From NCBI GenBank assembly GCA_006503535.1, contig QYRS01000003.1, positions 3,410,001-3,474,000 on the forward strand: a stretch of 64,000 nucleotides of DNA, given 5' to 3'. Within the stretch, counting starts at the first letter, position 1, and each line of letters opens with the position of its first letter. The translations under genes were made by a program, and so were the position numbers. Below the pieces are notes generated by a model. It saw only the letters and a program-made list of their open reading frames with translations, made no database searches and was not told the origin of the DNA. The stretch comes from Arthrinium phaeospermum (Eukaryota > Ascomycota > Sordariomycetes > Amphisphaeriales > Apiosporaceae). This document shows positions 1 through 18,571 of the stretch, piece after piece.

Positions 1-54
1 AAGGTTGTCGTCATCTTATGCCCCCGGTCTTCATGTCCTTCTGCGGTGTTGTGA

Positions 55-348
55 GCGCTGGTGCTTGAAAATACGCCACCGTTATCAGGGTCTGGCGGTG
101 GTGGTGATGGTGATGGTGGTGATGGTGATGGTGATGGTGATGGTGAGAGCGAAAGCGACGGCGACGACGACGGCGACGGCGATCACAGGTACAAGGAACC
201 CGAAAAGCTACGAGAAATCGGCGGACCCATCACGGAGGCGGCAATTCCTGCCGGCAATTCACTTTCAGTGTACCGCTACCAAGCTACTGGCCTTAGCTCT
301 CGATCTGGGAAGGGGAGGCGAGTCTCTACAAGTGCATACATGAAGTAA
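55..348 (+). pseudogene. Family A fragment: 3' end with acidic Gly/Asp repeat and REIGG tail
   Basis: The open frame follows a TGA at 52-54, has no ATG, and ends in TAA at 346-348, so it is a 3' exon or a remnant. It encodes a Gly-Asp low-complexity stretch from a 6-bp GGTGAT repeat, then an acidic Glu/Ser/Asp run, then Y-K-E-P followed by REIGGPITEAAIPAG. The same tail (Y-R-D, then REIGGLITGAATPTG) closes the minus-strand copy at 9047-9590, which is why I place it in family A. The N-terminal part would lie left of the window or is lost. I do not recognise the tail as a known domain. It could also be the last exon of a spliced gene. Confidence 0.4.
105..153 (+). repeat. GGTGAT hexanucleotide microsatellite
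   Basis: Near-perfect repeats of GGTGAT with one GGT interruption. They encode the Gly-Asp run of the family A fragment; another frame reads Val/Met, giving a spurious hydrophobic stretch. Confidence 0.8.
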
Positions 349-581
349 CAGTTTCTATTACTTTAGAGTCTACTCATAGTTAATGAAGCGATACGGAGGT
401 GAAGCCACATATTCTACAATATCATTTGGGGATTCCCTTCTGCGCAACACGGGTAACACTTTGGCGATTCGAAGTTTTGGGGGTTTTCTGGGGTTAGAGT
501 AACCTTCTGGCTGTTCAATGGCATACTTCTCTTCCCCCTTATTTCTATTAGATGCCTTCCTTGTCACTCTTGATGATACCT

Positions 582-1133
582 TCAGTTTGAAAGTGCCGAA
601 AACTCCCCCTTGCTGGTCCTGAAAGTGGCTAGGTGTAGACCTGGCCGGCCCAAGTCCTTGGCCGTTTTCCAAACCCGCTTATACACATCGTAAGTTGAAG
701 GAGTGTCACATCGTCCCCCGACTGTGTCATAGCGATACTGATGGTTCCGGACGCAGTACGATCCAGCCCCCGTCTGTAGAATGTGCCATTTGGGCAGAAA
801 CCGCTCCGTGCCCTCGCCGAGGTCTCGGCTGCAGGTGAACCGCACACGCGCCTCGCGGCCGACCACCTCTACGTGGTATTCCAGATCGCTGTGGCAAAGG
901 TCGCAGACATAGATATTCCGGAGGTTGCCGCCCCAATTGCTCCTCCAATTGGCACCCGCATCGTCTCTCCATCGCCCGTTGGGCGGAAACGTGAGGCGCA
1001 ACGACACCGCGAGTAGCCCGTCGTTGTCCACCACCTCGAAGTTATGCATATGTACATCTTTGTGGTGGCAAACGCGGATATGGAACACCCGAGTTGTTTT
1101 GAGATGATTTCCTGGTGGAAAACGCCATCCCAT
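582..1133 (-). CDS. Family B protein, short paralogue with CxxC core (function unknown)
   Basis: A 183-residue frame, clearly paralogous to the last 175 residues of the 410-residue protein at 7144-8376. Shared blocks in order are RVC-H-K, NDGL, S-x-R-x-TFPP-x-GRW, Y-x-C-x-x-C-x-SDL, YHVEVVGRE-x-RVRFTC, LPKW, SPSTY-like TPSTYDVYKR, and a GEF near the C-terminus. The CxxC plus later Cys suggests a zinc-binding or disulphide-stabilised domain. The pattern CxxC-x-(S/T)D followed by a Leu-Gly/Pro-Trp block resembles the C-terminal region of many fungal F-box-type hypothetical proteins; that link is inference. The first 230 residues of the longer paralogue are missing. The frame stays open upstream past 1240 without clear similarity, so this is a truncated copy or has an unseen upstream exon. 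Confidence 0.55.
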   Translation of the reverse strand: MGWRFPPGNHLKTTRVFHIRVCHHKDVHMHNFEVVDNDGLLAVSLRLTFPPNGRWRDDAGANWRSNWGGNLRNIYVCDLCHSDLEYHVEVVGREARVRFTCSRDLGEGTERFLPKWHILQTGAGSYCVRNHQYRYDTVGGRCDTPSTYDVYKRVWKTAKDLGRPGLHLATFRTSKGEFSALSN

Positions 1134-1288
1134 GGCTGTTCCAGAACCAAGCCTGATTGAAACCTTAACGTTCAGGGCTTGTCGTTTGAGAGAGGGTATT
1201 TGTATTGGAATGAAGGTGGAACCAGTTAGAAGATTGCCCGTTATGTGAGTATATGTACCGATAGAGACGAGGACCCAGACGGAGCAAG

Positions 1289-1477
1289 ATGGCAGGACAA
1301 GACGACGTTCTGATCAAGTCGGCGCTCAACGTAACGGCCCAGTTCGCGATACGGCTGCACTACGGTCACACGGCGCCGTACTGGGAGGGCACGTCGATAA
1401 GCCACCATCACTGGGGCCATAGCGACTGGAGATATTGCTCTTGTAAGTCCCGAGGCAGAAAAGACGATGCAGCATGA
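1289..1477 (+). CDS. Small hypothetical protein, possible distant family A exon
   Basis: A 62-residue frame starting at ATG 1289. It contains TAPYWEGTSISHHHW, which resembles the APW-x-SD-x-x-x-HYWYE block of family A, followed by C-S-C. A GTAAGT donor-like site at 1442-1447 lies directly after the Cys pair and a CTGAT branch-like site plus CCAG acceptor follow near 1515, so the real gene may splice on rather than stop at 1477. The frame lies just downstream of, and divergent from, the family B copy. The similarity is short and there is no membrane segment here, so this is tentative. Confidence 0.25.
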   Translation: MAGQDDVLIKSALNVTAQFAIRLHYGHTAPYWEGTSISHHHWGHSDWRYCSCKSRGRKDDAA

Positions 1478-1519
1478 TGTCAAGTCATGACTGATGCGGG
1501 CGGCCTGCTGCCAGGGCAT

Positions 1520-2746
1520 AGGTACAGTATGGCCAGCAGTGCCTTTGGTGATGGCGGCGAGGGACCACGACTGGCGGATCCCGGGTACACAATGCCGCCC
1601 ATACGGTGTTTTGTTTATATTTCTGGATCTTTAATGGCTGCGGCGTCGTTGTATGGCTGATGATAGTGACTCGAGGGCAAAAGGGGGAAAGGGGGACAAG
1701 ACAGGGGCCGAAGACATCAACTCAACAGCTTTGTGTCAATGCTAGCTATTCTCATTCAAAACTATGGAGTTAAAGGCTCTGCATCTTTCTATAGTTAGGC
1801 ACATGTTTGTCCAATCCAAAGAGCATACGGCGAACGACTGCTTAATAGATTAATGCCTGCCTGACTTACACCGAGAGCTGACTAGGTGAAATGGTTACTT
1901 ACCCGACGTGCTGCCCCGGGTATAAGGGATAAGCCTTCAAAGGACTCTCTTGATTAAGTAGTTCATTCAGTCACACAGTTGGCGTCAGCTTTTGGAAAGG
2001 TCAAAGAAGCTTCAAGCAAGTATTTTAAGGGGTTCGCTGAAGGCAGAACCTCCTGTATATGGCCAATACCTAGCGCGCACAGCTCTAGTAGCTTATGACT
2101 GCTCAACTAACACCATTTGGAATCAGATTCTTCTTTTGAATTGCATATAGCACCATCTATGTAAGCTGAAGCGCCAAGAACTCTTTTGCCATGGCTTTAT
2201 TAGGGATATCAGGAGATAATACCACTAATCAGGTTGTATTCTTTGTGCAAACTCGTTAAGTAAACGTCAAGTAGATGATCTACATGCATCCTCATGAGCA
2301 TATGGCGAAGGGCACTGCCCCTTTTACAATGGCTGCCATCTCTAGCTTCCCGGATGGGATAACCACAATGACGTCTACCCGCTGGCTGCGTATGAATGCG
2401 TAGAGTAAGCGCAACAGACACCCGCCATGCGCCGGAGGGTCTGCCTTCCTATGGAGCTCGGGCCTTCCGCGAACGAAGGCGCTCTTTCGAGCACCTGGCG
2501 ATTCCGTATCGAGGAAGGAGCAATGCGATGCGTTGCACGATGCAGTCTGATGGCGCGGCGCCCGAGTCTGAGTTCGTTCTGCTTCTCCTTTGCTCCCCGA
2601 CCGAACCAGAGAACCCGACGCCGACGACAGCGACCGTAACGACAACGACTACGACTACGACTACGACGACGACAGCGACGAAGACGACGCCGACAAGAAG
2701 AAGAAGAAGAACAAGAACAAGAAGAAGCGGCAGCAGCAACAGCAAG
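1520..2746. other. Intergenic; leader of the intact family A gene
   Basis: No convincing gene. The last 120 bases before the ATG at 2747 hold GAC-type triplet repeats (2640-2690) followed by AAG-type repeats. Similar GAC/AAG-rich leaders precede the ATGs of the minus-strand copies at 10126 and 9590. Confidence 0.6.
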
Positions 2747-3319
2747 ATGCCGAACGTAACATACGACGGCAGAGACGCCCCCTGGTTTTCGGACGGCAGC
2801 GTGCACTATTGGTACGAGTTTACTGCTGCCCCTGCAGCCGTTTGTATCATTATTTATTACATTGCAAAAACGATCCGCTGGATCGTTTCCTTCTTCCAGA
2901 AGGAGAAGAAGGAGCCCGCCAAGAAGGGCGATAAGGGCGACAAGGGCGATAGGGGCGAGAACGGGACCAATGGCATCAATGGTGTCAACGGCACCAATGG
3001 CACCAATGGCACCAATGGTGTCAATGGTACCAATGGTACCAATGGCAAGGACGGCGAGCGAGGACCCCCGGGACGCCGCGGCCCCCCTGGTGTTTGCGGC
3101 TGCTGTGCGGCTCGACGATACCAGGATTTCTTCGGCCTGCCCCCCTCCTCCGTCCCCCTCCCCTCCTCCATCCCCCTCCCTCCCTCCCGCTCTCCCTCTC
3201 CCTCTTCTCCTCCCCCTCCTCCTCCCCGCACCTCCTCCTCTTCTTCCAAGAAGAAGACGGAGACGACGGCGACAGCAGCGGCAGCGAAGAAGCCGTGGCG
3301 CCCCGCAGGCGGCCGTTAA
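2747..3319 (+). CDS. Family A: membrane-anchored collagen-like protein, best intact copy
   Basis: A 190-residue protein. I chose the ATG at 2747 over the longer frame from 2396 because paralogues start at the same M-[SP]-N-[VS]-T. Residues 1-25 carry NVT, a glycosylation sequon, and APWFSDGSVHYWYE. Residues 26-50 are hydrophobic with one Cys (membrane segment). Residues 51-60 are Lys-rich. Residues 61-115 are 18 uninterrupted Gly-X-Y triplets: GDK/GDR, GEN, then GTN/GVN/GIN repeats, GKD, GER, GPP, GRR, GPP. Residues 117-132 read CGCCAARRYQDFFGLP, conserved in the broken copy at 9.8 kb. A Pro/Ser tract encoded by an almost pure pyrimidine run and a Lys/Thr/Ala tail end the protein. Gly-X-Y with GPP indicates potential triple-helix trimerisation. 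Function is unknown. The tail may be spliced differently, because another frame there is more like the acidic tail of paralogues. Confidence 0.65.
   Translation: MPNVTYDGRDAPWFSDGSVHYWYEFTAAPAAVCIIIYYIAKTIRWIVSFFQKEKKEPAKKGDKGDKGDRGENGTNGINGVNGTNGTNGTNGVNGTNGTNGKDGERGPPGRRGPPGVCGCCAARRYQDFFGLPPSSVPLPSSIPLPPSRSPSPSSPPPPPPRTSSSSSKKKTETTATAAAAKKPWRPAGGR
2962..3045 (+). repeat. 9-bp GGN-ACC/GTC-AAT repeats coding the Gly-Thr-Asn collagen-like tract
   Basis: Tandem 9-bp units with mostly synonymous or Thr/Val/Ile variation encode G-T-N, G-V-N and G-I-N triplets. The unit length keeps Gly at every third residue. Confidence 0.75.
3137..3247 (+). repeat. Polypyrimidine tract inside the family A gene
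   Basis: About 110 bases that are almost only C and T on the coding strand, following the Cys cluster. It codes Pro/Ser in the reading frame used. Comparable C/T-rich tracts lie at 9229-9298 (purine-rich on the plus strand, so pyrimidine on the coding minus strand) and at 11232-11337. Confidence 0.75.
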
Positions 3320-6300
3320 GAAGAAGAAGAAGAATTGAATATTCTTAACCAAGTGTACGATACGACGACGACGACGAGGAAACATCATCAGCGCATCGCC
3401 AGCCCCCACCTCTTAAGACATGCTTAGGGGTGGGGGACTTCAACCATGGAGACTGTGGGTCACTCGCTTCATCCATCAACAGCGTACCCGTTGAGGTCTA
3501 GTAGGCATCATCCAAGCCGAAGCCAAATGCAGCTCCCTCGCCTTGCTACAGTCACAAGCAGGCGTAAAGGCGACACCAAATCAAGCGCACTCGTCAACAC
3601 CACAAACCACTCTTACAAAGTCAACAAACAATCAAGTCGTTCATCGTCAGTCACTTTGGAAATCATCAGAATAACACAATTCATTCAACTCTTCTCTTCC
3701 AGAACCTACTTCAACACAAGCATCGGAAGTCCACCCAAGTCCAATCAAGTCAGGGGTTCTTTCTTCATCCAACATCATTCAGGGTCGTCACCAACCCAAT
3801 TTCAAACATGGCAAGAAACACTTTCAACACGGGAGGAACCAACTTCGATTCAAGTCGAACATTGCAGACATGAATTTCGAACTTGGAAGAAACCAAATTC
3901 GAACTCAGCTCGAACATGACGGGCTCGAGTCTTCACACAGGAGGAACATTCAGACACAGGAACCACAATCCACCAGGAGAGATTGGAAGCCGTACTCAAG
4001 CATGAAGACAGCACAGTCTTGCGTCACAGTAAGCCACCAGAATCACACTTCACCACAGAACTTGGAAGCTTACCAAACCTGCTCAGGGGCTCTGTCTACA
4101 CTTAGGGGTTTCGTCTTCGTTCAGGGGAGTCATCAATGACAACCCAAACATGGAAGAAATCACCTTTCACTCAGGAGGTCTCTTCAGACATAAGAGGCAT
4201 AAACCATTTGGAGATATCGGAGGAAACACCCGAGCATGGAGGCACTGCTCGTTTCCACACATGTTGACATGCTCACAAACATGGGAAACAACTATCGTCA
4301 CTGCGAGTGAACATGGAGGCACATTTGAGGATTGAGGCATCGCTCACGCAGGAGGTATCTCTCAAAAAGAGACACTCAGATGCAAGAGGATTTGTTGCAC
4401 GCATAGCTCGAAAACTGGATGCAGCGAAGGAACTCGAAGGAAACCAATCGAACACGGGATGATACACTCCGCGAATGGTCATTTGCCCACTGGAAGCCCG
4501 TCTGCTTCACACAATCAGAGGGATCGGGGTGCTATCTGCTGAGCGGATCAACAAGTTGCACTCGAGGGTCGTCTGCTCTACACAACAAAGCAATCGCTTC
4601 GCTTCAAGCTGCTCGAACCAAGAACCAACCATTGGCCGTTTAACCAATAAGCGGCAGTACCGTTTTCTTCTCAGCTAACTACTTACTTGTTCTTCCTTCT
4701 AGTCTAGTCTTCTTCCGTCAAGTCGTCGCGTCCAGTCAGTCGTCTCGTCAAGTCGTTATGTCCAGTCGTCTCGTCAAGTCGTTATGTCCAGTCGTCCGGC
4801 AGTCGTCTCCTCCAATTCTGGTTCTTCTTCTCTCGTACGTAAAAATCATATTTTGGTTTCTCTCTAACTATCTCCATCTCTACTACAATTGCATGAAGCA
4901 ATTGATGTGTCATTGTGGCACCTTTTGGCGGTATAACTTGTAAGTGATTGGCTCTCTGGTGGATGCGAAAACTCGAACTTCTAGCATCTATCCTTAACTC
5001 TGCGTTAGCTAACTAACTGGCTTGCAGCCGCAGGAGCATATCTTTGGGAAAGGAAAACTTACCCAACACCAAACCGCCCACACCTTGCAGACCTGCCCTT
5101 CATTGATGTAGCAATGGTAGCCACTCGAGTTACTCGATCTTGAATGCCCTCCAAGATTGCACACAGTCGAGTGTACCTGCGTTATTTAACGAAAAACGCG
5201 TTCGGCAAACCTAGTTGAGCAGATTCAGACTTCTCTATCGGGGTTTCAACTGGCGACCATGCCTCACATGCCCAACCTCTGCCTGGTCTCAAGAACTGTC
5301 AAAGCGATGGTTGATCTCGGCTTCTCCAAAAACGACCTTCAGCCCGCTGATCTTCTTTGATTGCGCAGTCCTCAGCCATGGGCATGGATCACTTTTCCAA
5401 TCTCGGCCCGGATTTCGACGGTGTATTTGCCGACACGACCTGCCAGTGTAGTTGGTTGGATTCTGGTGCTTTCACCAACATTTTCGATGCTATTCTTCAT
5501 TGCTTCGAACACAGTGATTGTTCGTTACACCATTCAAAGGGCGCGAGAGCGTCGGCACACAGTTTGCAAGGGTGAACAGCACATTGCACAAATTGTTCGT
5601 TCTGGCATCTTCCAGTCCCTCTGGCAATTTACGAGATCAACCTTCATCCGAGAACCTGAACGCGGCCAACTGAATGAGAACAAAATGCTCTCAAGTTCTT
5701 GCTCTCCAAGACCCAACAGAACCAAATGGGAGAAACGAAAACAATCAGGAACAATGCACAAAACAAGCATACTTGGTGCATTTGTCCATTACCAAGCTTG
5801 AGTCGGCTTACCGATACGTTGAAGAGAATCGAGGAGAGGTCTAGATCCATGCAACTTCGACAGCTCCGTATTGACCAATTCAAAGAGGTATCAAAACCTC
5901 ATGCTACAAGCGGAATCGGATCGGGGCACGGAGTCTCAATTCAGCCCACCCAAGCAAGGTGGCTATTCTACATAGTCTGGTGTCAACTGAACTACTGTTG
6001 TACTGCACCTGCTTGTTCGGCTATGCGGCCTTGCAGTTTCGGACTACCTCGAGAGCCCCCGAACGAACGAACAGACACTCCGTTCGAGATCATCGATCCC
6101 GTGACACCTGTGTCCTGGAGGTTTCGAGGTGCCTCTGATTCCGAAATCTTGATCTTCGTTTCAAACGTTGTCAGACAGAAGCGAAGATCTCAGCTATTCT
6201 TGATAGCTTGGTGTCAAGGGAACTCAAAGCTGGCTGACGCAGGCTGCACCCATACTTGATCGCCTTTCACACTACCCCAGATCGCGAATTCTAAAATCAA

Positions 6301-7143
6301 AACGTATCGCTGTTGGGAAACAAACTGAATTGAGCCTTGGTGGGATGGTTTCGGCAGGCTTACTTTGCGCAATCACCTCACCGTTACACGATTTCATCAT
6401 GGCATTGATTCGAGACGACATCTAGCCATTCGTCTTCTGACATGCCCAAGCCCATGTCTTAGAGAAGGATGCGATCGAACTCAGGATCCCAGATCTGAGA
6501 AGCCTTCAGAAGTCTCCTGCAACAACGCACCAGTTCAATACAACTTGACTTCACTATAGATTTCGGCAAACTTAACTTTACGGAATCAAATCCATGTCGA
6601 GTGAGCTCTGGTGCAAAGAACCTTGAAAGATGACCGTCGCCATCTTGTTGGAACAACTCAACAAGCGGTTGTTTTGAAAGAGCACAGGGAAATACACAAA
6701 CACAGAACCCCGGCGAGGAAAATGCATTCGCCAAATGCTCATTCAAATCAGGATGCCTGGAAGAGAGTAGCTCACAGTACTCGACCAGTTGTAGATACAT
6801 TTGGCCACTTAGGGCCAGGGTCACCTCGGAAGAGGATCTGCTTCAAACATCACACGAATATTGCGATGGTGGAGTCCGAGTTCAATGGCTGCTCAAAGAT
6901 TGATGGCATGATCGTACCTAATGAAGAGTGGGATACTCATGAGCTTTCATCAACTCACCGGAAGTCGTCACTAAATCCGTTACTCGCCCCCACGCTGGCA
7001 AAGGGATGGTTCCCAGGAACTTTCGAGGTAGAAATTGTGTATTCAATACATCTGAGTCTGTCGATTCTACCCAAGAATGTGCTTTAATCTAGATCATGCA
7101 CAAATTGTGACATTAGCCACGCCATCCAATACGACGGGGACTT
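3320..7143. mobile_element. Gene-poor region, probably a decayed retroelement
   Basis: No intact gene. The first 1.3 kb is strand-asymmetric and A/C-rich, with recurrent near-repeats such as GGAGGAAC, TTGGAAGAAAC and CATGGAAGAAATC. Short plus-strand frames continue to about 7.08 kb. One includes W-L-D-S-G-A at 5453-5470, which resembles the aspartic protease motif of Ty1/Copia polyproteins; another, near 6080-6115, reads PFEII-x-PVTPVSW, loosely like an integrase core start. Stops and frame changes break every stretch. I could not find terminal repeats, so class and borders are uncertain. Confidence 0.35.
4741..4792 (+). repeat. 26-bp perfect tandem duplication
   Basis: The unit CGTCTCGTCAAGTCGTTATG plus TCCAGT occurs twice head to tail (4741-4766 and 4767-4792). 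Diverged partial units flank it from about 4715 and again after 4792. Confidence 0.9.
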
Positions 7144-8376
7144 TCAGACTTGAACTGGTGCGAATTCCCCTCCCTTGGTCATGTAAGTGACTAGATGCAA
7201 ATTGGGCCGGTTCAGACCCTTGGCTGCCTGCAGAACCCGCTTATAGGTTTCATAAGTGGACGGGCTGTCTTCTCTGCAGTTCACATAGTTCGAGTCGTAC
7301 TGGCTTTGCCGTATTCCGTGAGGCCAATCCCCCGTCAGAAGGTTCTGCCACTTAGGCAGGGATCGCTGAGTGGCAGCACCTAAGTTCCTGCAGCAGGTGA
7401 AGCGCACACGGACTTCGCGACCTACCACTTCTACGTGGTACCCCAAGTCGGAGTCACACTTATTGCAGAAGTAGAGGTCGTTCTTGCTGCTACCATTCGA
7501 GCTATTCCAATACACTCCGGGATCAAGAAACCACCGTCCCCATGGAGGAAAGGTGACACGCATCGACACGGAAGTGAGCCCATCGTTCTTCCACACCCTG
7601 GAGTATCCCAGACGTACGACCTTATGAGAGCAAACGCGAACCGTGATAGAAGGCCAGAAGGTGTGTCGTGCATCCATGGTATACATCAGCTCTTGCTTTT
7701 GCAAGAAGGTGTCCTTGTCGAAATAGATCTCGCTCGACCAGTTACATGGCATATCCCGCTGCATGGTAGACTTGATGACGGACCGGCCGTGGCACGATAT
7801 CTCGGGAATGAAGGCAAGTTTGACCTCGGGGTCTAGATTGCGGCGCGCGTAATCTAGATGATAGAACGCGAGATGGTAGGGTATGGCGGCATGGATGGGC
7901 TGCAGGGTCGTGATCGAACCAGTATCGAAAGGCAGGTCTGACGTGAATGGCGCACTCTTTCCGGCGGCGCTGACAACCGGCGTCAATTCGACCTCATCGT
8001 CCTCTGTGGACTTCAGTGGCGCGTAATCGGCAGCTGTCGTCCTGCTCCAGGCTACATGGTGCAGGATGGATTCGGCGGCAGACAAGTACCATGGCTTTTT
8101 CGGAAAGAGGCTGAGGTTGTGACTAATGGGCTTTTGTGAAGGATTGTGTTGATCACAACCCTCGTGGTAGTAACAGACGCAGGGTGATTGACCTTGCCAA
8201 GGTCCGTCGTGCTGGTCGTCAGCACACACCATTGTACTCGAGGATTCGAGGCTCATAGACTTATTGGATAAAGACATCGTGTCTGTTACGAAGCGGAGCG
8301 CAGGAGGAGTCCTGGTAGTTGGATTAAAATTTGGAAAAGGAAAGATGTAGGGAATGATGGCTTGGCGGCTGGACAT
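7144..8376 (-). CDS. Family B protein, full-length copy with CxxC core (function unknown)
   Basis: An uninterrupted 410-residue frame. The first 230 residues carry scattered Cys (SPCVCYYHEGC near residues 65-74) and no recognised domain. Residues 240-410 form the part shared with the copy at 582-1133: TVRVCSHKVV, NDGL, RVTFPPWGRW, YFCNKCDSDLGYHVEVVGRE with CxxC at 304-307, RFTCCRNLG at 326-333, LPKW at 340-343, and SPSTYETYKR at 371-380. There is no signal peptide or membrane segment, so it is probably cytosolic or nuclear. An alternative start at Met34 (8277) is possible. It sits between the decayed element and the broken family A copies. The CxxC block looks like the C-terminal part of fungal F-box-like proteins, but no F-box is visible here. 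Confidence 0.6.
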   Translation of the reverse strand: MSSRQAIIPYIFPFPNFNPTTRTPPALRFVTDTMSLSNKSMSLESSSTMVCADDQHDGPWQGQSPCVCYYHEGCDQHNPSQKPISHNLSLFPKKPWYLSAAESILHHVAWSRTTAADYAPLKSTEDDEVELTPVVSAAGKSAPFTSDLPFDTGSITTLQPIHAAIPYHLAFYHLDYARRNLDPEVKLAFIPEISCHGRSVIKSTMQRDMPCNWSSEIYFDKDTFLQKQELMYTMDARHTFWPSITVRVCSHKVVRLGYSRVWKNDGLTSVSMRVTFPPWGRWFLDPGVYWNSSNGSSKNDLYFCNKCDSDLGYHVEVVGREVRVRFTCCRNLGAATQRSLPKWQNLLTGDWPHGIRQSQYDSNYVNCREDSPSTYETYKRVLQAAKGLNRPNLHLVTYMTKGGEFAPVQV

Positions 8377-9046
8377 ACAATGCGCTTTTATGTGTCATTG
8401 TATACTAACTGTATAAGTTATTTCTACTTCCTGTATTAAGTTCGCCTGTTTGAGGCCATCTCCGCCGAAGAAGAGTGTTCAGCAAACCCCAAATTCGGCG
8501 TGGTCCAAGCCTGGGTCAAATTCAAATTATAGGGGTACTTCGGACGATGCAGGTTCTGCGTACCTGTGAAGTCTGGCACAATGCTCAATGCAATTTGTAC
8601 TGCAAGACAGGTAGGTGGGCAAGAAAAGATTGCAGATCGATTTGTTGCTTGTGTAGGTGACCATGGTCTCAGTATCTATCGCCTGTCAACACTCTTCTCA
8701 ATCTACTCAATCTTGCTCGTCTCGCTTCTCCCGATTAGATTCTTGGCTGCTTGGCGGCTATCGTAAACAGAGCAACTTCACCATATTGCACACTTTCGCA
8801 TTAAGAACCGGGATATTCCGATCTTTGCTCCAATTGCCTATGACCACATATACGCACTCATGACAACTCGTCTCCCTTTCCCAGACCGAGAGCTGGAAGC
8901 CAGTAGGTTGGTGGTGGTACACTGAGAAAAGACCGCAACTCGGAGCAGAAAAAGGTGTATGATTGATCAGAGAGCCACTACTGACGCCCCCAGGCGTCCT
9001 GTTACAGACCTAATCTAGCGCATTTTCTCTATCTACCCCCCCTTGT
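8377..9046. other. Intergenic, nothing recognised
   Basis: Only short unsupported frames. It would hold the promoter of the family B gene on the minus strand. Confidence 0.5.
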
Positions 9047-9228
9047 CTATCTAGCGTCCTTCCTCACTGGACATAACGCGCCGGTAGGAGTCGCCGCTCC
9101 CGTGATGAGCCCGCCGATTTCCCGTTGCTGTTCCAAGTTAGTGTCCCTGTAATAGCCGGCGCCATCACCGCCGCCGCTGCGTTCCTCGACGTCGACGTGG
9201 TTGCCGTTGTCTTCGTCGTCTCCGGCCA

Positions 9229-9298
9229 GGGAGAAGGCACGGAGGGAGGGGGAGGGGGACGAAGAGAAGAAGGAGAAGGAGGAGGAGGGAGAGAGCGG
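9229..9298 (-). repeat. Purine/pyrimidine mirror-like tract inside family A copy
   Basis: GA-rich on the plus strand, hence C/T-rich on the coding strand, with GGAGGAGGAGGG-type repeats. It occupies the same relative place as the tract at 3137-3247. Confidence 0.65.
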
Positions 9299-9339
9299 CC
9301 GATGCTGTCGTCGTCGTCGCCGCCACGCCCCCAAGCCCG

Positions 9340-9363
9340 CTACAGCAGCAGCAGCAGCAGCAG
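9340..9363 (+). repeat. AGC trinucleotide microsatellite
   Basis: Seven to eight AGC units. On the minus strand they extend a hydrophobic Leu run (CTG codons) just before a TAG. Confidence 0.8.
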
Positions 9364-9792
9364 CCACTTCACGGCCGCCCACACCACCCCGAGCACCACG
9401 GCCACCACCACCACCACGTAGGCCAACTCCGCCGCCACCCCCAGAAACCACCATATTCCTGGCCCTACAGGGTGACGAGGACGAGGATGGTGCTGGCGTA
9501 GGCGAACAGGGCCGCCGAAAACTGGTAATGCCAGTTTAGGTGGGCATCCGACAACCAAGGCGCCCAAACCCCGTATGTCGAGTTCGACATCTTTCTTCTT
9601 CTTCTTCGTCAACGTCGTCGGTGTTGTCGCTACCATCGCTTGGCTTGCCCTTATCGCCCTTCTCCTTGTCATCGTCTTGGTCCTCGTACTTGAAACAGGA
9701 TACAGCTCAGCGCACTAAGAGGAGGAGAGGAAGATGGGAACGGGCGGTTTGGCCGACAGATGTGCCCATATTGTCGGTGGCAGCGATGTCAA

Positions 9793-10126
9793 TTAGGGGG
9801 ACAGCCAGGATGAGGCCGACCGGAACAAGGGGAGGCCGAAGAAATCCTGGTATCGCCGAGCAGCACAGCAAAGGCAACGGCCCGGGGGTCCTTGTCGCCC
9901 TTGTCGCCCTTGTCGCCCTTGTCGCCCTTGTCGCCCTTGTCGCCCTTGTCGCCCTTGTCGACCTTCTCGGCGGGCTTCCTCTTGCGTCCGACAACGATCT
10001 AGTGGATCATTTTTACAATGGAATAAGTACTGACGATATAGGCCACGATAGAAGCAGTTAATTCGTACCACCAGTGTATGCTGGGGCCGTGGAGGAGTCC
10101 TTGCCGGTATATGTCACGTTCGACAT
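9793..10126 (-). pseudogene. Family A collagen-like copy, inactivated by frameshift and nonsense
   Basis: From ATG 10126 the frame reads MSNVTYTGKD and then goes out of register; TAA follows after about 23 codons. One frame away, IHWWYELTAS and a hydrophobic run match the membrane block of the gene at 2747. At the position of the conserved Arg-Trp the Trp codon TGG is TAG (I-H-stop), so the copy is broken twice. Beyond it lies a 9-bp repeat array of Gly-X-Y type, then GPPGRCLCCAARRYQDFFGLP, whose last 14 residues are identical to the intact copy. The nonsense change and several C-to-T/G-to-A differences around it would fit repeat-induced point mutation, but indels are also needed. It lies head-to-tail upstream of the copy at 9047-9590. 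Confidence 0.7.
9891..9962 (-). repeat. 9-bp tandem array, seven perfect units plus one variant
   Basis: Plus-strand unit CTTGTCGCC repeated seven times, then CTTGTCGAC. On the minus strand one frame reads Gly-Asp-Lys and another reads Gly-Arg-Gln, so two of three frames give collagen-like Gly-X-Y. The Gly-Arg-Gln frame is the one continuous with the downstream GPPG-Cys motif. Confidence 0.92.
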
Positions 10127-11111
10127 CATGCTTCTTTCTCATGTTGTCGTCGTCGTCGTCTGGTTCTCTCGTACGTGCGGGGAGGAAAGGAAAAGTAGAA
10201 CGATACCAAGACGCGTATTCCAAAAGTGACAGTTAGGGCAAGGAAATTAGGTCGAGAAATTTTCAATAAGTTCCAAGAATTGAGGTCCTCCTCGCCAACA
10301 AGGTTGCGGCTTGGAATGTAATGCATTGCTCCTACCGCGACAGCATTGCTTAGCGTGCGTGAGAAAGAGCTCCTCCCTTCACAGGCTGTTTCTGTCCGTA
10401 GCGGGAGTCTGGTCGGGTAGTTACTCTTCACATTTCTATGGCAGGAGGCAGTTGTCCCACATTTTATGCTAATTTAGCATTATTCCGCGCCAGTATTTTG
10501 CTGCGCCAGTTTTATTCCATGCTGGAGTTATACGAGCCTTTGGTAGAGTTGTACAAGATGATGCTATAAGTTATGAGTGTTGCGCCTGGGAGAAGTTGCA
10601 TATAGATGGAGCCGAAGCGTTATGAGAGAATCGCGTTTCCTAGAAATCATTTCGCGGCAATCCAATTACGATATTCCGCCCGACGAGCGGTACCTGGCGG
10701 TTCGGTGTCGAACATGGTAGTGAGCATCCGCGTACACGTCGAAGAAGGCAACGAGTTTCCGGATCCGAGTCCTCCAGATTATGTAGGCGTCACCGTTCCA
10801 GACGGACCATCAGTCCCGGGTGAACCAAAGAGTCGGCGACTCTCCCACTTTTACCACCTTCATGTGGCTGGTTCCGGACCGGCCGGCTGTGGGTCGGAGA
10901 TGTGGGAATGGGCGGCGCGGCGACGAGGATAGAATGCCGCATCCCTCCATTCTCCCCATGACCCTCCCCCTCCCTCCCCATCCGTGCCTACCGGGCTGGG
11001 GAAAGAGAATACGAGCATAATGACGCAGATGACGGTGGTAATAAGGACGAACCCGAACAAGAAAGTAAACGGAAACGAAGGAGATGAAGTCGATATTAAT
11101 ATCAGGGGATT
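10127..11111. other. Intergenic; one unassigned frame
   Basis: Contains the GAC-repeat leader of the minus-strand copy (10145-10160) and a 108-codon plus frame at 10606-10932 with no recognisable domain. Between 11020 and 11090 an acidic stretch is followed by Lys/Arg codons, similar in order to the leaders of other family A copies. Confidence 0.4.
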
Positions 11112-11219
11112 ATGATTGGGCCCATATGCTCATATGGCCTGCCCTCGCAGGTGAATTATTGGTACGAGGTGGGCCAAGTGATCGGCGGTGAAGAAGCAGT
11201 GGGGTTGTTGCGACGGTGA
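11112..11219 (+). pseudogene. Family A fragment with the aromatic membrane-proximal block
   Basis: A 35-codon frame that contains GLPSQVNYWYEVGQVIGG. The V-N-Y-W-Y-E core matches VHYWYE and IHWWYE of the copies at 2747 and 10126. It lacks the M-x-N-x-T start and a full hydrophobic segment and stops at 11217. It may be a remnant or one exon of the adjacent downstream gene. Confidence 0.35.
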
Positions 11220-11231
11220 CGGTCATGGCGG

Positions 11232-11337
11232 ACATGCAATCCTCCCCTCTCTCTTCCTCTTTCTCCCTCCTGCCTCCTGCTCCTCGTCTCTCTTTCATCC
11301 AAAACCCCAACCCCCTCGTTTCCCCCCTTGCGGGCCT
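11232..11337 (+). repeat. C/T-rich tract between family A pieces
   Basis: About 100 bases dominated by C and T on the plus strand. It follows the family A fragment and precedes the MSNST start at 11387, echoing the tracts in other copies. Confidence 0.55.
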
Positions 11338-11386
11338 GCTCCTTGTCTGGAGCAGGAAAAGAAGGAAAAAAGAACAATAATAGAAG

Positions 11387-12154
11387 ATGTCAAACTCGAC
11401 CGTTATGGCTCAGAGCAGAAAGCCCAGCCCAACCGAGCCAGCCACCCGCCCCAGCCCAACGGCGCCAACTACGCCGACTCGGCCCAGTTCCAGCCCAAGT
11501 CCCAACAAGCCTAAACCCAACCCTAGCTCCATCACCAGCTCCTTTGCTTGGGCAGAAGGACGAGAGCTGCTGAGCCAGGGCGTTGGGTCTCAACTGGAAC
11601 TTTTCAAGGCCTTCACCTCGACGTCAGGATTCTGGGCCCGCTGGTTCAGATATCTCGTTCTACTCGCACTAGTCGCCCGGGTTCTCCACCACGGTGGTCG
11701 CCTATTCAGGCATTACGGCCATCGTCTGTTCGGGGCGGTCAAACGGCTTGGCGGCTGGGTCAAGGGCGGCGGCGGCGGCGGCATCTGGGACAGTGTAGGA
11801 GGCAGTATTATTGGCAGCGCCCGCGAGGGCAAGAACGGGAACCAGGGTCCCCTAGGTATCTGTGCCTCCTGTCACACACAGCTGCCGAAACAGCAGCTAT
11901 CTATACATACCTGGGAGGTGTCTCCTAGACTCCCCTGCAACAGGCAGACCCCCTTCGCCTCTCACGCGGCGTATCCCTCTCCATCTTTCCGGCCCTCGTC
12001 GCGCACCTGCTCCTCGCCTGTTTCGACCTCGTCCCAGGCCGGCTCAATACGGTCCGCGCCCGCCGCACTGCCGCCGAGACGGGAGGAAAAGAAGAAAACG
12101 AAACCCACCACCGCCCCAAGAAAGAAGTTCTGCAACGACCGGCCCATTTTCTAG
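11387..12154 (+). CDS. Divergent family A relative: MSNST start, membrane segment, short collagen-like stub
   Basis: A 255-residue open frame. It starts MSNST like the copies at 9590 and 10126. Residues 10-50 are Pro/Ser/Thr-rich and disordered. About residues 83-103 (RYLVLLALVARVLHHGG) form a membrane segment, followed by Arg/Lys-rich residues and a Gly-rich run. Then comes GKNGNQGPLGICASC, a short Gly-X-Y stub ending in a C-x-x-C pair, in the same order as the GPPG-Cys cluster of the collagen-like copies. The C-terminal third is Ser/Arg/Pro-rich with Lys-rich stretches and may be partly intronic, since GGTATCTG at the stub could act as a donor. Function is unknown. Assignment to the family rests on order of features more than on strong residue identity. 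Confidence 0.45.
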   Translation: MSNSTVMAQSRKPSPTEPATRPSPTAPTTPTRPSSSPSPNKPKPNPSSITSSFAWAEGRELLSQGVGSQLELFKAFTSTSGFWARWFRYLVLLALVARVLHHGGRLFRHYGHRLFGAVKRLGGWVKGGGGGGIWDSVGGSIIGSAREGKNGNQGPLGICASCHTQLPKQQLSIHTWEVSPRLPCNRQTPFASHAAYPSPSFRPSSRTCSSPVSTSSQAGSIRSAPAALPPRREEKKKTKPTTAPRKKFCNDRPIF

Positions 12155-16438: not shown

Positions 16439-16609
16439 TTATCCACCGGTTATTCTCCTTGCAGAGACAACGATCCAGCGGATCGCTTTTACAATGTAAG
16501 AAATAATGATACAAACGGCTGCAGGGGCAGCAGTAAACTCGTACCAATAGTGCACGCTGCCGTCCGAAAACCAGGGGGCATCCCTGCCGTCGTATGTCAC
16601 GTTCGACAT
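16439..16609 (-). pseudogene. Detached 5' copy of family A directly behind SPB4
   Basis: A 56-residue frame starting MSNVTYDGRDAPWFSDGS, then VHYWYEFTAAPAAV, a hydrophobic segment and IRWIV, after which similarity stops and TAA follows at 16439-16441. Over roughly 140 bases it is nearly identical to 2747-2887, so it is a recent copy. It has no Lys-rich, Gly-X-Y or Cys part. Its ATG comes 4 nt after the SPB4 stop codon on the same strand, so it would be transcribed as 3' UTR of that gene. It is a 5'-partial duplicate, and the frame is still intact. Confidence 0.7.
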
Positions 16610-16613
16610 CGTG

Positions 16614-18571
16614 CTAATCACCACCAGCCGCCGCCTCGGCAGCGAACTTCTCCTGGTTCTGGCGTCGGATCTGGGCCAGCAGCTCGTCGAGTTCACGTGC
16701 CTTGAGCTTCTCCTCTTCCGTCATAGTGCTCAATGTCTTGGCGTCCTTCTTCTTGCGGCGCTTCTCCTGGCGGACGGTCCGGACCCCTTCCTGCTCGTGC
16801 TTGCCGCTCCATGCCTCGGCGTTGCGCTTGCGCTTGGACTTGAACGCCTCGGCCTTTTCAGCGTCGGCTTCGGGGTCCTCGGCTTCCATCGCGGCCCGCC
16901 GCGCCTTCTCGCGCGTCTTGTCCTTGTACTCGTAGGCGTCCCAGTCCATCGTGACACCCAGCCTCTTGTCGCCATTGAACGACTTGAGCTCGGGCATCTT
17001 AGGTAGTCTCAGGAGTCCCCACCCGCGGCCCAGCTGCGTCCAGTCCAGATCTTCGATGCGGAAGATGGAGCTGGCTTGGTGCTTCCCGTAACTGCGAATG
17101 AAGGAGGGGAAGGCGCGTTGGGCCTTTTCGTGAAGCGCGCGGTCTTCCTTCACCAGAGCCCTAATCTTCTCGGTGACTGCTGTAGCTTCCGCGTCGCTGA
17201 CATCGATTTCCGGGTGCAACAGCGGCGTGATTGGCGTCTTCCTGATGTCCAGGAACTGCACGTAGTCCTCCTCCTTCCCGGGATGGAGGAAAACTACAGC
17301 GAGACCTCGTCTCCCTGCGCGACCCGCACGTCCCGCTCGATGGATGAAGACCTTTACGTCTGACGGGGGATCCAATTGCACACTGAGATCGACTTGAGGG
17401 ATATCAATACCTCTCGCCGCAACATCCGTCGTAAGAAGAATGATGGGCTGGGATGAAGTTTGGAACTTGTCGAAGTTTCGCTTGCGCACCTGAGGCTGAT
17501 GTTTGCCATGCAAAGGCACGAGCTGGTAGCCCTCGGGGAGCAACGGTGGCAGTACGTGCTGGAAGTAATCAACTGCAGCGCATGTTGATAGGAAGATGAT
17601 GGTCTTTTGCGGCCGTTGTTCTAACTTGTCCAAGATCTGTACAAGAGCTGGTAGCTTGCGACTGGCAGGAGTGACTAGGTATGTCATCTGTAACGATGCT
17701 GGTGTGCGTCTGTCCTCAATGATGCCGCCGGTCTTCAAGCTCTTGACCGTGACTGATACACGCACTGGGTTGCGCAATCCCACGCGGATGATCTCCGACA
17801 CGGCTTCGCTAATACTGGCACTGAAAAGGCCAGTCCTCCTCTGCTTGGGCAGTCTAGCCAATATTTTCTGGATGTCGGGCTTGAAACCCAGATCGAGCAG
17901 GCGATCGCCCTCATCGAGCACGAGGCACTCGAAGGAAGACTGGGGCAATGCACATGGGGGCTCGAAAGGAGTTCCACCAGACGGCCGGGGGTGGCGATGA
18001 GTATGTTCGGGCTGTGGCGGAGGAAGAAGGATAAATCCTGGGCGGGCGTGGTGGTGCCTCCAACGACGAGCTGTGGCAGAATGAAGGGCGTCGTGGTCGT
18101 GGGCCTCTTTTCGAAATCGTCCGAGAGGAAGGGCAGGAGCTCGGCAGAGGTCGTGTGGAAGGCAATCAAATCGGTAAGAACCTTGTGGATTTGACTCGCC
18201 AATTCGCGGGTTGGGGTGACGACGATGGCGGCGACATGATGGCGCTTCGTGGGTTCTTCGATGCGAAGCAATCTCTGAATCAAAGGGATCAAGAATGCTA
18301 GCGTCTTTCCGGATCCCGTGACAGCCTCGACGACGACGTCTTTGTTGGTCAAGAAGAGCGGCACTGGGGCATACAATGTCAGCGGTCTCCGAGACAGGTT
18401 GGAAGGAGAAGGCAGGAGAGGGCAGCACTTACGGACAGCAGCCTGCACAGGTGTCATTCGCGAAAAGCCACTACTCGATACATATTCCAAGATCCAATCT
18501 GCGAGGGGCGGCGTCAGAGCATCCCAGGCTCTGACATCCTTTTTTGCTGGCGCTTTTGCTTCGGGTGCCAT
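16614..18571 (-). CDS. SPB4: ATP-dependent RNA helicase Spb4 (60S ribosome biogenesis), apparent 1-nt frameshift
   Basis: Exon 1 is 18433-18571 ([11 protein letters not shown] start); intron 18364-18432 (GTAAGT...CCCCAG); the rest runs to TAG at 16614. Motifs in order: Q-motif region [11 protein letters not shown], Walker [20 protein letters not shown], motif II DEGD, SAS, and [13 protein letters not shown]. The downstream blocks [13 protein letters not shown] and [13 protein letters not shown] and the basic C-terminus fit Spb4, a nucleolar helicase for 27S pre-rRNA processing. The reading frame changes by one base at CCCC 17942-17945: before it [10 protein letters not shown], after it [13 protein letters not shown]. 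One extra C restores a 629-residue protein of the expected size. Motif II reads DEGD instead of DEAD. Because the gene is essential in yeast, a base-call error in the homopolymer is the simplest reading. A family A fragment begins 4 nt after the stop. Confidence 0.88.

Follow-up and report, generated by a model that had tools for sequence, protein, structure and literature searches.

A candidate family of small Apiospora membrane proteins with one conserved and one collagen-bearing member

The first 17 kb of a 64,000-nucleotide stretch of Arthrinium phaeospermum DNA (contig 3, 3,410,001–3,474,000; hereafter the window) raise the question of whether a family of small membrane proteins with collagen-like tracts is expanding at this locus and which of its copies remain live genes. 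A preliminary description had assigned at least six loci, plus one at 16.4 kb, parts of one plan that included a Gly-X-Y tract. Comparison with the organism's own genome (48.4 Mb, 19 contigs) and with protein databases points to a real, small family that has so far been seen only in Apiospora and a single metagenome; one member (G) is conserved and another (A) is collagen-bearing. Of the loci named, A and three further copies, B, C and D, form one group, with G as a probable distant relative, whereas F and H dropped out. The proposed plan had been extended too far, to F and H, and its Gly-X-Y element also to C, D and G; within the window a tract is present in A and B only. As an orphan family this is an ordinary one, but the layout of A is unusual. 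The loci retained are as follows.

2747..3319 (+): copy A, a collagen-like membrane protein; intact frame of 190 residues, with relatives P0002 and P0003
9468..9590 (−): copy D; 41 codons with an MSNST start and the membrane segment, ended by a stop
9706..10129 (−): copy B, a relative of A broken by stops and divided over three frames; Cys part at 9796–9891 (−) and a 9-bp array of 8.9 copies at 9890–9969
11387..12154 (+): G; intact frame of 255 residues conserved in Apiospora, with no collagen tract and a CxxC at residues 159–162
16466..16609 (−): copy C; 48 codons copying the start and membrane segment of A with 95% DNA identity

Copy A is divided into the following parts.

2747..2803 (+): residues 1–19, M-P-N-V-T start and Trp-bearing head (from the frame and the AlphaFold2 model)
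2804..2908 (+): residues 20–54, predicted helix holding the membrane segment (AlphaFold2 and hydropathy)
2927..3088 (+): residues 61–114, 18 Gly-X-Y triplets with 9-bp tandem arrays over most of their length (Pfam, pattern and tandem-repeat analysis)
3089..3142 (+): residues 115–132, GVCGCC-AARRYQDFFGLP block, kept in A, B and P0003 and in P0002 as far as FFG
3143..3316 (+): residues 133–190, Ser/Pro tract and Lys/Ala-rich tail, in low-complexity DNA

By pattern, Gly-X-Y triplets follow one another 20 times over residues 61–120 of A; as the final two, GVC and GCC, make up the Cys cluster, 18 clean triplets remain. The longest run in 2000 codon-shuffled versions of A was five. The tract matches the Pfam Collagen family (PF01391) with 37.6 bits against a curated cut-off of 27.2, the sole Pfam match of A over its cut-off. 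N-G-T sequons are present within the tract, and A contains four Lys/Arg-Gly-Asp/Glu pairs. One membrane helix and a CxCC-AARRYQDFF block flank the tract, and the head contains no Cys before residue 33, which is itself inside the membrane segment. The AlphaFold2 model shows a helix over residues 20–54 (block means of 80 and 74 for residues 31–50) and a second over residues 118–128 in the Cys block.

A search of A against 5.8 billion proteins produced 810 matches, and the statements made here on its relatives rest on the best 120 of the 810. The top matches were P0002, from a metagenome (E 3e-28), and P0003, PG985_009282 of Apiospora marii (E 2e-26), with the next listed at 3e-15. A, P0002 and P0003 have in common the membrane segment and a C-x-C-C-A-A-R-R-Y-x-x-F-F-G block, which in the form GPxGxCxCCAARRYxxFFG is also found in B. 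P0002 keeps 15 triplets together with the Cys block and lies over the PF01391 cut-off (32.8 bits); P0003 has four unbroken triplets and lies below it. P0003 leaves A before the W-Y-E block, where its sequence matches a neighbouring frame in copy C; this departure may be real, a sequencing error or an artefact of the gene model, between which the protein alone cannot tell. The tail of P0003 scores higher against B than against A (229 versus 168), and the start higher against A (82, versus 43 against B). P0004 shares only the Gly-X-Y tract with A, and the remaining listed matches, some of them named bacterial, appear from E-value, coverage and Pfam column to be tract-only. A Pfam scan gave no support to the UniRef name of P0003, Copper transporter. 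A search with the N-terminal part of A alone returned one candidate and no match, missing even P0003, and was given no weight.

The homologues of G in eight Apiospora species mark it as a real and conserved gene. A query consisting of an alignment of G and P0002 produced ten matches at E up to 0.1, namely eight Apiospora proteins (P0122–P0129), P0002 itself and a generic collagen, P0130 (E 0.0055). Identity is 93% for A. marii, which provides the best named relatives of both A and G, 76% for an unnamed Apiospora species, 58% for A. phragmitis, 56% for A. hydei, 54% for A. rasikravindrae, 48% for A. arundinis, 47% for A. kogelbergensis and 87%, over a quarter of the query, for A. saccharicola. 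Two parts of G stand out.

11579..11764 (+): residues 65–126, conserved membrane and cationic helix (model helices 69–78 and 80–121)
11831..11872 (+): residues 149–162, KNGNQGPLGICASC hinge, similar to the A branch

Within positions 65–126, 36 of 62 residues are identical in all nine members, around SGFW-RWFRYL-LLAL. The block SGFW[AS]RWFRYL[VI]LLAL is present in all nine (G and P0122–P0129) and absent from A, P0002 and P0003, and A is therefore not a member of the G branch proper. This region is followed by a variable Gly-rich stretch, a QGPLGVCAVC-type hinge (without its Cys in the A. saccharicola gene model) and a Ser/Pro-rich part. The head is Pro/Ser/Thr-rich in most members, and six of the nine end in RKK-F-NDRP[LI]F. 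No Pfam family was matched at E 0.1 by G or its eight homologues, and searches with G found nothing in NCBIfam at E 0.1 or among solved structures at E 1. Among the matches listed, those sharing more than Gly-X-Y come from Apiospora (P0003 and P0122–P0129) and from the metagenomic P0002, and the collagen repeat of A is the only Pfam match over a cut-off, which so far supports the earlier suggestion of a lineage-specific family. The start of the A. saccharicola model, P0129, also matches a frame upstream of G (10606–10932, +; 63% over 57 residues), so that the surroundings of G are kept in this species too; the match is probably conserved upstream DNA drawn into the gene model.

A link between A and G is likely. 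Both open with M-[SP]-N-[SV]-T and contain a QGPxGxCxxC hinge, and hhalign aligns the two with a probability of 94% over 18 columns. The score of P0002 against G (92, shuffle mean 32) was reached by none of 500 shuffles, that of the P0002 hinge alone (60, shuffle mean 21) by none of 1000 and that of the part behind the hinge (46, shuffle mean 26.5) by three of 1000, while the scores of A residues 106–135 against seven G homologues were each reached by zero or one of 300. In A. marii the G-type and A-type proteins bear consecutive tags (PG985_009281 and PG985_009282, the latter being P0003), and both records give the same longest contig value, 5,858,985 bp. The start pentapeptide M[SP]N[SV]T occurs at five of the 2187 ATGs on both strands of the window, those of A, B, C, D and G, compared with 0.09 expected when codon columns are shuffled (five were reached in none of 2000 shuffles); because the motif was drawn from these same loci, the count is only modest independent evidence for G. 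The best local match of A to G is a low-complexity Ser/Pro tract (68, reached by none of 500 shuffles) and was given no weight.

The other copies are damaged to different degrees. C is a copy of A over 147 positions, beginning just ahead of its start codon and running through the membrane segment, with 139 of them identical; beyond this the two sequences part, and D ends at nearly the same point. In B, TAG and TAA stops interrupt the sequence, and the start, membrane segment and Cys block are spread over three frames. When B and D were left out of the profile, it scored B at 21.1 bits (E 0.0002) and D at 17.5 bits (E 0.0025), compared with 11.3 bits (E 0.22) for the best unrelated frame; the highest score among 30 shufflings of the complete peptide set from 84 kb was 11.8 bits, and among the reversed peptides 10.9 bits. 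C lies directly behind the stop of the frame 16614–17687 (−), which is putatively helicase-like by its motifs, and because of this position C may be transcribed within the 3′ end of that gene.

Six-frame searches of the own genome score the best candidates only, and the copy counts are therefore lower bounds. The first 58 residues of A matched A, C and B, the first 41 codons of D matched D and, weakly, C (E 0.036), and the Cys block matched A and B only; none of the matches to the N-terminal unit or the Cys block falls beyond the first 17 kb of the window. These searches place the N-terminal unit in the own genome at A, B, C and D only, inside 14 kb, and G was found once, with one further match at E 0.39. 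A genome-wide family was not found, 17 of the 21 matches of A in its own genome starting at residue 44 or later, in the tract or tail. In the 20 kb upstream of the window the N-terminal-unit profile gave no significant match (best E 0.82 to 1.1). Since the N-terminal unit is seen only here, the expansion is, as far as these searches indicate, local and mostly dead. The family had been called expanding, which holds for the four copies at this locus, with G present once and no genome-wide spread found. It had also been expected to contain one or two live copies and relics, and the state of the copies agrees with this: A and G are intact, with G conserved, B is broken, and C and D stop at the membrane helix.

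PF01391 itself gave 23 six-frame matches in the own genome at E up to 0.001, at 12 places, ten of which, including A, have a match over the cut-off. Two of the 12 match on both strands and are likely to be low-complexity DNA. Among the other matches over the cut-off are L039, L041, L043, L044 and L049 (contigs 10, 5, 4, 6 and 12), some of these with Pro-rich GPPGPEGPPG-type tracts.

Repeat-induced point mutation might have contributed to the breaks in the copies. The kilobase 9001–10000, which contains D and most of B, has a TA/AT ratio of 0.90 (0.25–0.90 per kb in the first 20 kb) and a (CA+TG)/(AC+GT) ratio of 0.97. These values are near the usual thresholds for repeat-induced point mutation. 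Without the tandem arrays they become 0.91 and 0.90, still the most mutation-like of the first 20 kb. By contrast, B alone has ratios of 0.70 and 1.11 and a G+C content of 0.57, and in the start and membrane part 14 C-to-T differences lead from A to B, only four of the 14 in CpA.

The best explanation of these observations, to which as a whole and including the proposed working of A we assign a probability of about 0.5, is an Apiospora family of two branches. The G branch is the conserved one: a head that in most members is rich in Pro/Ser/Thr precedes a membrane helix leading into a cationic helix, then a Gly-rich stretch that ends in the QGPxGxCxxC hinge, and lastly a tail that varies. The A branch combines the G-type start and hinge with another membrane segment, and its hinge would have grown to about 18 triplets through a 9-bp minisatellite, 9-bp arrays being present in both A and B. 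Local duplication near G would have left one intact A copy and the broken or cut-off B, C and D within 14 kb. In A, the N-terminal helix would serve as the membrane anchor and three chains could wind their Gly-X-Y parts into a rod, possibly helped by the Lys/Arg-Gly-Asp/Glu pairs; with the collagen rise of 0.29 nm per residue, an 18-triplet rod would be roughly 16 nm long. Where the rod ends, the CxCC cluster might link the chains or hold metal or lipid, and the AARRYQDFF helix and the Ser/Pro/Lys tail would be kept away from the membrane as on a tether.

Several results weigh against this explanation. Among the matches listed, A-type proteins are found in one named species only, and there, in P0003, the long rod is not kept. 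No constraint is seen between A and C (three synonymous and six changing differences, p = 0.30) or between A and B in the start (p = 0.31) and membrane part (p = 0.47). The membrane segments of A and G are not alike, 57 to 410 of 2000 shuffles reaching the score of A, and nor are the tails (81 to 756 of 2000), so that the link between A and G rests on two short elements and adjacency. An acidic tail had been proposed as a common element, but the tails of A and G are basic and their likeness does not go beyond chance. The N-terminal half of G and the N-terminus of A are also not alike (111 of 500 shuffles reach the score). The whole of P0002 compares weakly with P0125 and P0128 (14 and 13 of 300 shuffles), the score of the P0003 hinge was reached by 0 to 7 of 300 shuffles, and P0002 was itself included in the query that retrieved the homologues of G. 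Finally, the structure models of A and G are poor overall, with a mean predicted local distance difference test score of 49 each and values above 70, as judged from block means, only around the membrane helix.

The rival that survives best is that only G works and that the A branch consists of decaying duplicates, the Gly-X-Y tract being a minisatellite in a lucky frame. This is a serious possibility, although it falls short of being probable. It would account for the broken or shortened state of B, C and D, for the unconstrained A/C, A/B start and A/B membrane comparisons, for the tandem arrays over most of the tract and for the interrupted tract and missing W-Y-E block of P0003. It is harder to reconcile with the intact 190-codon frame of A, with the 15 triplets and Cys block of P0002 and with the Cys block of A and B, where seven synonymous and four changing differences indicate constraint (one-sided Fisher p = 0.006, one of four comparisons). 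The family had been described as fast-evolving; the tract and tail do vary among A, P0002 and P0003, but this block shows constraint. The 20-triplet run of A is unbroken even though the third bases of its Gly codons vary (12 C, 5 T, 2 A and 1 G), and in nine 9-bp units (2966–3046) the Gly and Asn codons differ silently only, whereas the remaining codon changes its residue three times. Neither argument is strong, since the run was selected for its continuity and the units are repeats of one another.

A second rival concerns the side of the membrane. Under the positive-inside rule the positively charged flank of a membrane segment lies on the cytosolic side. The rod of A is predicted to face the cytosol because Lys and Arg are absent from the 15 residues before the membrane segment and number six in the 15 after it. 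If A were instead an MCL1-style cell-surface protein, the rod would lie outside, its NGT sites would be glycosylated and it could function in masking or adhesion. The sequons in the tract would suit such a role, as would the surface location of the collagen-like MCL1 of Metarhizium given in two reports (PMC6350332, PMC7348879), but the charges predict the opposite side and the head has no Cys, which makes a surface role unlikely. It is similarly doubtful that A and G are unrelated neighbours whose start and hinge agree by chance or low-complexity convergence: the common block is 18 columns long and the membrane segments and tails differ, but the P0002 hinge resembles G more closely than any shuffle does, the start pentapeptide is hardly expected in the window and the A. 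marii tags are consecutive.

Within the two-branch explanation, the tract could represent a collagen rod being born, in which a short Gly-rich hinge before the CxxC became an 18-triplet cytosol-facing tract by 9-bp repeat expansion. Among the eight homologues of G the longest runs are 2–7 triplets, some being plain poly-Gly; P0003 has 4 unbroken, P0002 15 and A 18–20. We give this course only a slim chance; the same slim chance covers its corollary that the relatives and copies preserve stages of tract growth.

On this evidence, two loci of the preliminary description are not family members. F (11112..11219, +) is not above chance, with an E of about 7 and no listing at E 10 in the leave-out runs. 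H (55..348, +) has no start, no membrane helix and no sign of coding constraint; 105 bp of it are 73% identical to DNA downstream of D, and the differences are spread evenly over the codon positions (9, 10 and 9 of 35), giving no sign of coding. The 56 residues of H match only themselves in the own genome.

Other frames at the locus were also noted. A small frame at 1289–1477 (+) contains NVT, APYWEG and SDW stretches that recall the head of A and does not appear in the profile lists at E 10 to 20. The frames 7147–8376 (−) and 585–1133 (−), which flank copy A and one of which adjoins D, are related to each other (53% identity over 163 residues, with CxxC pairs); a search gave eight matches at six places in the own genome, both frames included, and no Pfam family was over its cut-off.

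Among known systems, the animal membrane collagens XIII and XVII resemble A in having a single membrane helix followed by a Gly-X-Y rod. They are oriented N-inside, C-outside, whereas the charges of A predict the reverse orientation, and the tract of A is far shorter. The NCBIfam models of bacterial SclA, SclB and Lcl match the tract of A at 9e-12, 3.9e-11 and 1.2e-9, but with 37–45 bits against cut-offs of 325–500 and over the tract only. The MCL1 type is described as having a hydrophilic Cys-bearing N-terminal domain, 22–52 repeats and a C-terminal domain of varying length and as being secreted to the surface (PMC6350332). A, likewise fungal, also has its Gly-X-Y tract in the centre and contains potential N-glycosylation sites, but is set apart from that description by the absence of Cys from its head, by a repeat number of 18 (20 if counted formally) and by the membrane helix that precedes the tract. 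Other reports describe CgnA of Aspergillus fumigatus, a collagen-like gene in the strain-variable HAC cluster, together with degraded frames similar to bafB, another gene of HAC-type clusters (PMC8545126), and an Mcl1-like candidate in Colletotrichum (PMC4546252). Compared with CgnA by that description, A differs in location, the HAC cluster being subtelomeric and the A locus lying 3.41 Mb into a 4.79-Mb contig.

In the open-access literature on fungal collagen-like proteins and Apiospora, no report describing the A/G family was found by title and abstract. For annotation, G, present in eight Apiospora species, and its collagen-bearing neighbour have no functional name in the records retrieved, apart from the unsupported Copper transporter label on P0003. 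Provided that A is expressed and adopts the proposed fold, it would represent a membrane-anchored fungal collagen with a layout not found in that literature, and because tracts of short, interrupted and long form occur together in this locus and among its near relatives, the locus would allow a test of how a collagen triple helix arises from a minisatellite.

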